Part shown: one piece after another, positions 7,086 to 9,932 of the stretch
How the letters are laid out: every line of letters begins with the position of its first letter
Position numbering within the stretch: position 1 is the stretch's first letter
Source: Alphaproteobacteria bacterium
GTDB taxonomy: Bacteria > Pseudomonadota > Alphaproteobacteria > Micropepsales > Micropepsaceae
NCBI GenBank assembly: GCA_027492655.1
Contig: JAPUEF010000235.1
Coordinates: 1-48,164, forward strand
Length of the DNA stretch: 48,164 nucleotides
Direction: 5' to 3'
Position numbers and translations under genes: made by a program
The notes under the pieces: generated by a model
The model's input: only the letters and a program-made list of their open reading frames with translations
What the model was told of the DNA's origin: nothing
The model's database searches: none

Positions 7086-8198
<1,113 letters not shown>

Positions 8199-8403: not shown

Positions 8404-9429
8404 ATGAGCTGGACCATCGCCGTCGTCGGAGCCACCGGAACCGTCGGCCAGGAAATTCTCAACGTGCTCGCTGAGCGCGAGATCGAAGATGTCGAGGTCG
8501 TGGCGCTCGCCTCGCGTCAGTCGATGGGCGTCGAGGTGTCGTTCGGCGACGCCACGCTGAAATGCCGCGACATCGCGCAGCATGATTTCACGAAGACCGC
8601 GATCGCCTTTCTGGCGCTGGACGCCAAGACCGCCAAGGAATGGGCCCCGAAGATCGCGACCGCCGGCGCGGTGGTGATCGACACCTCGTCCGCCTTCCGG
8701 CTCGATCCGGCGGTGCCGCTGGTGGTGCCGGAGGTGAACGCCCATACGCTGGAGCGTTTCGCGAAAAAGAACATCGTCGCCGTCGCCAATGGCGCGGTGG
8801 CGCAGCGCCTCGCGGCGCTGAAACCGTTGCATGACGAGGCGAAGATCACGCGCGTCGTCGCCACCACGTTCCAGTCGGTCTCCGGCGCGGGCAAGGACGC
8901 GATGGACGAACTCTTCGCACAGACCCGCGCCATTTTCGTCGGCGACCAGGTGGAGCGCGCGGCGCTGCCCAAGCAGATCGCCTTCAACGTCATCCCCCAG
9001 ATCGGCGACATCGACGCTGAGGGCGCGACCTCGGAAGAGACCTCGCAGGCGATGGAGATGCGCAAGGTGCTCGACCCCGATGTGAGGCTGGCGGTCACGG
9101 CGGTGCGCACCCCGGTCTTCGTGGGCGACGCGGAGGCCTGCGTCGTGGAGTTCGAGCGACCGATCACCGCGCAGAAGGCGAAGTCGCTGCTGCGCGAGGC
9201 CCCCGGTCTCATCCTGATCGACCGCCGCGAGGATGGCGGCTATGTCACGCCGGTCGAGGCGGTCGGCGATTTCGCCACCTATGTCAGCCGCGTGCGCAAG
9301 GATTCCAGCGTACCGAACGGCCTGGCGCTGTGGCTGGCTTCCGACAATCTGCGCAAAGGCGCGGCGCTCAACGCCGTCCAGATCGCCGAAACGCTGATGG
9401 CGAAGCATCTGAAGAAGCGGATCGCGTGA
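8404..9429 (+). CDS. Aspartate-semialdehyde dehydrogenase homologue lacking catalytic Cys and His
   Basis: A full-length 341-residue protein collinear with Asd (ASADH). The nucleotide motif VVGATGTVGQEIL, the phosphate-site region SSAFRLDPAVPLVVPEVN, TTFQSVSGAGKDAMDEL (Gln157) and the C-terminal SDNLRKGAALNAVQIAE are well kept. The two catalytic residues are not. Where Asd has PNCST, this protein reads VANGAVAQ, with Gly130 in place of the nucleophilic cysteine. Where Asd has RVPV..GH, it reads RTPVFVGDAE, with Asp242 in place of the acid/base histidine. The frame is open, with AGGAG five bases before the ATG, so this is not simple decay. It should not reduce aspartyl phosphate; a structural or regulatory role is likelier. 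No second asd is in the window. The downstream SnoaL-like gene overlaps its stop by one base. Confidence 0.9.
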   Translation: MSWTIAVVGATGTVGQEILNVLAEREIEDVEVVALASRQSMGVEVSFGDATLKCRDIAQHDFTKTAIAFLALDAKTAKEWAPKIATAGAVVIDTSSAFRLDPAVPLVVPEVNAHTLERFAKKNIVAVANGAVAQRLAALKPLHDEAKITRVVATTFQSVSGAGKDAMDELFAQTRAIFVGDQVERAALPKQIAFNVIPQIGDIDAEGATSEETSQAMEMRKVLDPDVRLAVTAVRTPVFVGDAEACVVEFERPITAQKAKSLLREAPGLILIDRREDGGYVTPVEAVGDFATYVSRVRKDSSVPNGLALWLASDNLRKGAALNAVQIAETLMAKHLKKRIA

Positions 9430-9932
9430 TGGAGATCGCCGCCTTCCGCGCATTGCTGGACCGGCTTCAGCAGGCCGCTAGCGACGGCGACGCAGAGACC
9501 TTCGCGGGTTGCTTCACGCCGGGCGGCGTCTATCACGACTATGTCTATGGCGCGTTCGCGGGCCGCGCGAATATCGCCCATATGCTGCAAGACCATTTTC
9601 ACGCCGCGTGCCGCGACTATGACTGGCGCTTCTTCGATGCGGCGGTGACGGGCGAGACGGGTTATGCCCACTCGCTCTCGCGCTTCGTCTCGACCATGCC
9701 GGATTTCGAGGGCCGCGAAGTGGTCATCGACGGCATCAGCCGCTTCCGGCTTCAGGACGGCCTCATCGCGGAATACTGGGAGAGCGTGAACGCCGGCGTC
9801 GCGCATCAGCAGCTGGGCGTCGATCCCGCCCGCTCGGCCAAAGTCTTCGCGCGCTGGGGCCGCGAACTGCGCGAACGCGCCGACGTGACCGCCTATGTCG
9901 AGGCCGTCCGCGCCCGCTACGCGAAGGGCTGA
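9429..9932 (+). CDS. SnoaL-like / nuclear-transport-factor-2 family protein
   Basis: A 167-residue protein of the NTF2-like cone fold: FRALLDRLQQAASDGDAETF, then FTPGGVYHDYVYGAFAGRAN and a C-terminal strand pair around GISRFRLQDGLIAEYWE. Members of this fold bind or isomerise small hydrophobic ligands, but many are of unknown function. Its ATG overlaps the Asd-like stop in a TGATG junction, which implies translational coupling and makes it a candidate functional partner of the active-site-less Asd homologue. The last 16 bases overlap the convergent pdxY gene. Confidence 0.82.
   Translation: MEIAAFRALLDRLQQAASDGDAETFAGCFTPGGVYHDYVYGAFAGRANIAHMLQDHFHAACRDYDWRFFDAAVTGETGYAHSLSRFVSTMPDFEGREVVIDGISRFRLQDGLIAEYWESVNAGVAHQQLGVDPARSAKVFARWGRELRERADVTAYVEAVRARYAKG

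Follow-up and report, generated by a model that had tools for sequence, protein, structure and literature searches.

Background

The closest precedent for an aspartate-semialdehyde dehydrogenase (Asd, or ASADH) homologue of the kind described in the present work, in which catalytic residues have been replaced in an otherwise full-length protein, is Usg/USG-1 (E. coli b2319, PRK08040; P. aeruginosa 2hjs, PRK05671). One paper treats Usg as a putative Asd (PMC6358828); literature searches on Asd pseudoenzymes or USG-1 returned nothing, and no function for Usg was found in the papers searched. The product of the E. coli usg gene (L134:3637-4650) itself exceeds the cutoff of NCBIfam models that are described as aspartate-semialdehyde dehydrogenase. 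Catalytically dead paralogues of another kind, the prozymes, activate or regulate the deoxyhypusine synthase and AdoMet decarboxylase of trypanosomatids (PMC3663545, PMC5201418). The dependence of Asd catalysis on its nucleophilic cysteine and its acid/base histidine is documented by mutants of the H. influenzae enzyme, in which C136S leaves less than 0.01% of the activity and H277N leaves 1% (PMC3276109).

The gene and its product

The stretch of DNA that was analyzed, here called the window, comprises 48,164 nucleotides of the genome (G000) of an alphaproteobacterium from a small, uncultured group, and the features that bear on the analysis are as follows.

7086-8198, forward strand: leuB, upstream of asd1, used as a rate control
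8404-9429, forward strand: asd1, Asd homologue without the catalytic Cys and His, 341 aa
8614-8622, forward strand: codons 71-73, Ala-Leu-Asp where Ser-Ala-Gly is canonical (Ala-Val-Asp in G004 and G001)
8698-8700, forward strand: Arg99, kept (phosphate-binding Arg103 in H. influenzae)
8791-8793, forward strand: codon 130, GGC (Gly), position of the nucleophilic Cys
8869-8871, forward strand: codon 156, Phe, position of a near-invariant interface Tyr (V. cholerae Tyr160)
8872-8874, forward strand: Gln157, kept
9055-9066, forward strand: Glu218 and Lys221, kept (amino-group and phosphate binding; Glu243/Lys246 in H. influenzae)
9106-9108, forward strand: Arg235, kept (substrate-carboxylate Arg270 in H. 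influenzae)
9127-9129, forward strand: codon 242, GAC (Asp), position of the acid/base His
9429-9932, forward strand: SnoaL_2-family gene, its start overlapping the asd1 stop (TGATG)

The initial annotation had described the asd1 product, here called Asd1, as a full-length Asd homologue, and this is borne out by an uninterrupted frame of 341 codons that encodes both Asd domains, by an alignment to the solved V. cholerae Asd (2qz9), and by curated cutoffs: Asd1 scores 357.2 bits against asd_B (NCBIfam TIGR01296; equivalog cutoff 324.2) and 396.2 bits against PRK14874 (NF011456; cutoff 223). AlphaFold returns an Asd fold (pLDDT 83; five models with similar scores), and the predicted structure matches V. 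cholerae Asd with a TM score of 0.88. Judged by its sequence, Asd1 is an Asd orthologue, with 57-66% identity to intact relatives. There are no gaps in the alignment across either catalytic site; the nucleophile segment is NPNCSTIQ in 2qz9 and VANGAVAQ in Asd1, and the acid/base segment is FYGHAEA in 2qz9 and FVGDAEA in Asd1, so that the reported glycine and aspartate in place of Cys and His are confirmed at the codon level (GGC at 8791-8793, GAC at 9127-9129). The asd_B and PRK14874 models pass all three of the proteins considered here to be catalytically dead (that of the window, and L003 and L004). Because Asd1 is over both cutoffs, standard annotation would call it an active aspartate-semialdehyde dehydrogenase, and pipelines and databases would list it as an active and essential enzyme of a drug target class.

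Distribution and gene neighbourhood

The genus was represented by five genomes: that of the window (G000), G001, G002, G003 and G004. The initial annotation had raised the possibility that the Gly/Asp pair is a trait of a clade, which holds for the sister species G004 (Asd1 82% identical to that of the window) and does not extend to G001 (70% identical), where the Cys has become Pro and the His is kept; G002 has an intact Asd1 (66% identical). Neither Asd1 nor LeuB was found in the G003 assembly, but since rpoB and rpoC are missing from several assemblies, and likewise from that of G003, the absence of asd1 and leuB there may be an assembly gap. A census of approximately 173 Asd1 loci, drawn from the window’s family, other alphaproteobacterial genomes and named genome records, with some genomes counted twice, contains 164 loci in which all 13 of the key residues checked are present and one in which only Gly73 is changed; the remainder are fragments or partial matches, apart from three loci without the Cys, the only such loci in the census, all of which belong to the window’s genus. 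G001 also contains 48 codons from the C-terminal part of an asd gene (L148:5971-6114, on G001:C89), 62-69% identical to their best-matching Asd1 proteins and apparently the remnant of a further asd copy in that genome.

In the window asd1 comes after leuB, and this leu-asd synteny is conserved. The asd1 and snoaL genes adjoin each other in all four of the genus members that have asd1, with the TGATG overlap conserved, and the same adjacency occurs in 13 further members of the family in which asd1 is intact, while most of the family is without it. Because snoaL also stands beside intact asd1 genes, the pairing must either predate the loss of catalytic residues or have arisen independently, and it does not by itself explain the loss. 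A gene that fuses an ammonium transporter to a histidine kinase lies between leuB and asd1 in G004 (L142:6220-8376) and after snoaL in G002 (L141:8800-11004; 77% identical), and is absent from the window; it is a movable gene, possibly a nitrogen sensor, beside these genes.

Residues lost and residues kept

Both the Cys and the His are present in 105 of 105 distinct sequences of canonical relatives, whereas both are gone in G000 and G004 and the Cys alone is gone in G001. On the basis of the published H. influenzae mutants, ASADH turnover by Asd1 is predicted to be absent (PMC3276109). The statement in the initial annotation that the nucleotide and phosphate motifs and Gln157 are retained holds for GATGxVG and for Gln157 itself, but not for the near-invariant Ser-Ala-Gly motif at positions 71-73 or for Asn94, which is changed in both G000 and G004; with Asp at position 73 and Asn94 lost, the Rossmann/cofactor side of the protein is not fully conserved. 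The two replacements G73D and N94T may abolish the binding of NADP, which closes the domains in known Asd. Both G000 and G004 also have Phe at the site of Tyr156, the counterpart of the interface tyrosine (V. cholerae Tyr160) of a proposed intersubunit hydrogen-bond network (PMC3276109), and this replacement takes away one hydroxyl of the network.

Canonical Asd1 sequences agree at 90% or better at 195 positions, of which 37 have been lost in G000 and G004 alike. In the three proteins without the Cys, losses at such positions fall preferentially in the active-site and cofactor loops (odds ratios 2.9, 3.6 and 5.1; p = 0.005, 0.0007 and 0.0007), and there is no such enrichment in the intact Asd1 of G002 (odds ratio 0.74, p = 0.80), although the test is not blind because the loops were picked from known motifs around changes that were already known. 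The same three proteins all have Arg99, Gln157, Glu218, Lys221, Arg235 and Gln326, which are the counterparts of published substrate-, phosphate- and nicotinamide-binding residues (PMC3276109). Retention of these residues could simply reflect general constraint, and taken alone it is only suggestive, because with about 17-19% of near-invariant sites lost, the survival of ten sites would be expected by chance about once in every 6-8 cases.

The intact second copy

The search for another asd that the initial annotation had proposed was successful: the window’s genome holds a second copy, Asd2, in which PNCST is present and the His loop is intact, and which at 379 bits against asd_B is over the cutoff. 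Asd2 occurs in all five genomes of the genus, with the nucleophile motif ANPNCST and the His loop RAHCEA (RAHSEA in G001), and is 38-39% identical to Asd1. With an intact Asd2 and dapA in 5/5 genomes, aspartate-semialdehyde can still be made throughout the genus, and it is presumably Asd2 that supplies it. Elsewhere in the family, many members pair an intact Asd1 with Asd2, which makes it probable that the second copy was there before the loss. In a neighbouring genus (g5) of the same family, Asd2 (L150, L151, L153 and L156) has PNCTA and RAHTIS or RAHTIA in place of PNCST and RAHCEA, the Glu two residues after the His being lost, and Asd1 is canonical; it may be Asd2 rather than Asd1 that is changing function there.

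Order of the losses

The Asd1 tree joins G000, G004 and G001 (support 99/97), but when the active-site columns are removed this group appears in only 11% of bootstraps. A 15-gene species tree, from which rpoB and rpoC were left out because they are missing from several assemblies, places G001 with G002 and G003 (95/99), but an AU test (p = 0.149) does not reject the alternative. The three proteins without the Cys share the loss of 16 conserved positions, and at 7 of the 16 the replacement is identical (R16Q, M18I, S71A, G73D, W98F, T132V and I227V), which favours a single origin. The simplest reading is a single loss of the Cys followed by loss of the His in G000 and G004; parallel loss, or regain in G002, is possible but less simple.

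Selection on asd1

Because the Gly and Asp are common to G000 and G004, the divergence of this pair postdates both losses by parsimony, and a comparison of the two genes measures selection on asd1 after the catalytic residues had gone. The comparison gives dN/dS = 0.063 at dS = 1.45, where the approach to saturation makes the ratio approximate, with no stop or frameshift, and fixing the ratio at the neutral value of 1 worsens the fit by 2dlnL = 212. Controls from the same pair of genomes give similar ratios, 0.051 for LeuB and 0.039 for Asd2, and dN in asd1 is approximately twice that of either. In the Asd1 tree a long stem (0.41) leads to the G000/G004 pair and the two tips are short (0.11 and 0.17), as would be expected if a burst of change had given way to renewed constraint. 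Simple decay of asd1 is contradicted by the low ratio, the frame that is still open at this divergence and the rejection of neutrality, and the proposal of the initial annotation that the gene encodes a selected pseudoenzyme is supported. Among the features expected of a pseudoenzyme, an enzyme fold, the loss of key catalytic residues and maintenance by selection are found in Asd1, and a non-catalytic function is proposed for it below.

Discussion

That Asd1 is a catalytically dead Asd which has been kept by selection is very probable; what it now does is a separate question, to which a ligand sensor, a partner of Asd2 and new chemistry are the candidate answers. We moderately favour the proposal that Asd1 is a selected pseudoenzyme which has turned into a ligand-responsive binding or regulatory protein, while Asd2 makes aspartate-semialdehyde. 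The sequences show that a second Asd with complete catalytic residues is present throughout the genus, that Asd1 has lost the nucleophile and the SAG cofactor-loop motif, and then the His in the window’s species and its sister, and that purifying selection has kept asd1 an intact gene whose substrate-binding residues remain. In the proposed reading, Asd2 would now carry the aspartate-semialdehyde flux, and Asd1, keeping the Asd fold, would bind an aspartate-type or phosphate ligand without turnover and regulate aspartate-family and leucine metabolism in response to it. Binding of a ligand without turnover is about evenly balanced between true and false, and the more specific suggestion that the dead Asd, either with ligand bound or as a subunit together with Asd2, senses intermediates of the aspartate pathway and tunes aspartate- and leucine-family synthesis is offered tentatively.

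The main rival, which we consider unlikely, is that Asd1 acts as a prozyme does, joining Asd2 in a heteromer and activating or regulating it. Asd works as a dimer for which cross-subunit communication has been proposed (PMC3276109), the trypanosomatid enzymes provide precedents (PMC3663545, PMC5201418), and Asd2 accompanies the dead Asd1 in 3/3 genomes; but the two proteins share only 38-39% identity, the interface Tyr is Phe in G000 and G004, G003 has Asd2 and no detectable Asd1 (with the reservation of a possible assembly gap), and in many relatives Asd2 occurs beside an Asd1 that is intact. It is less likely again that Asd1 has become a different enzyme which has no need of the Cys and His and uses the kept anion-binding pocket. 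The long stem followed by slower change, the strong constraint on asd1 and the coherent set of changes to the cofactor and nucleophile loops that the three species share would all fit such an enzyme, but the nucleophile position holds Gly or Pro and no other residue obviously takes its place, an Asp has been gained in the cofactor loop, and none of the relatives among the profile and structure matches, whether solved or curated, has chemistry of this kind.

A relaxation of constraint, in which Asd1 is redundant with Asd2 and drifts toward loss, would accommodate the doubled dN of asd1, the failure to detect Asd1 in G003 and the fact that even the intact Asd1 of G002 is long-branched (0.36) with 25 losses at conserved sites; we regard it as very unlikely, because the ratio of 0.063 was reached after both losses with the frame open at dS = 1.45 and neutrality strongly rejected. 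The conserved TGATG overlap might instead suggest that the frame is kept only for the expression of a translationally coupled snoaL, but coupling needs an open frame and not the conservation of amino acids that is observed, and since snoaL adjoins intact asd1 in other genera and is missing from that position in most of the family, this explanation is highly improbable. Sequencing or assembly error can be dismissed even though the assembly behind the window is in 355 contigs, because the Gly and Asp recur at the same sites in the independently assembled G004 (L037), whose protein is 82% identical and thus 18% diverged, and because they lie among many other linked changes.

If the proposed reading of Asd1 as a ligand-responsive pseudoenzyme is true, it represents a bacterial pseudoenzyme regulator that evolved from an essential enzyme of amino acid synthesis after a second copy had taken over the reaction. 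Compared with Asd proper (TIGR01296, PRK14874), Asd1 has the same length, fold, leu-gene neighbourhood and substrate- and phosphate-binding residues, but lacks the nucleophilic Cys, the acid/base His and the SAG cofactor-loop motif, and has Phe for the interface Tyr. Like the prozymes, it is a dead paralogue of a biosynthetic enzyme that is kept beside an active copy (PMC3663545, PMC5201418); unlike them, it is linked to the active copy by coexistence, the two sharing only 38-39% identity, and Asd2 looks complete alone.

Usg resembles Asd1 in being an Asd-fold paralogue beside a real Asd with part of the catalytic set missing, and the P. aeruginosa protein 2hjs even has Asp at the His position, but 2hjs keeps a Cys and has Gln for Arg235, while in E. 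coli Usg the Cys position is Ser, the His is kept and Arg99, Gln157 and Arg235 have been lost. Asd1 falls below both Usg cutoffs (241.0 against 284 bits for PRK05671, and 253.3 against 273 bits for PRK08040), and in a tree of genus and family sequences, in which Usg was not placed, it groups with the intact, syntenic Asd1 of G002 (100/97); by these sequence comparisons it is not a member of Usg but a separate lineage. The residue patterns of the two are opposite, catalysis being lost (as predicted) and the binding set kept in Asd1. The genus provides a readable series, from the intact Asd1 of G002 through loss of the Cys in G001 to loss of both Cys and His in G000 and G004, which shows how a metabolic enzyme with a second copy in the genome turns into a pseudoenzyme, and in this respect it complements Usg.
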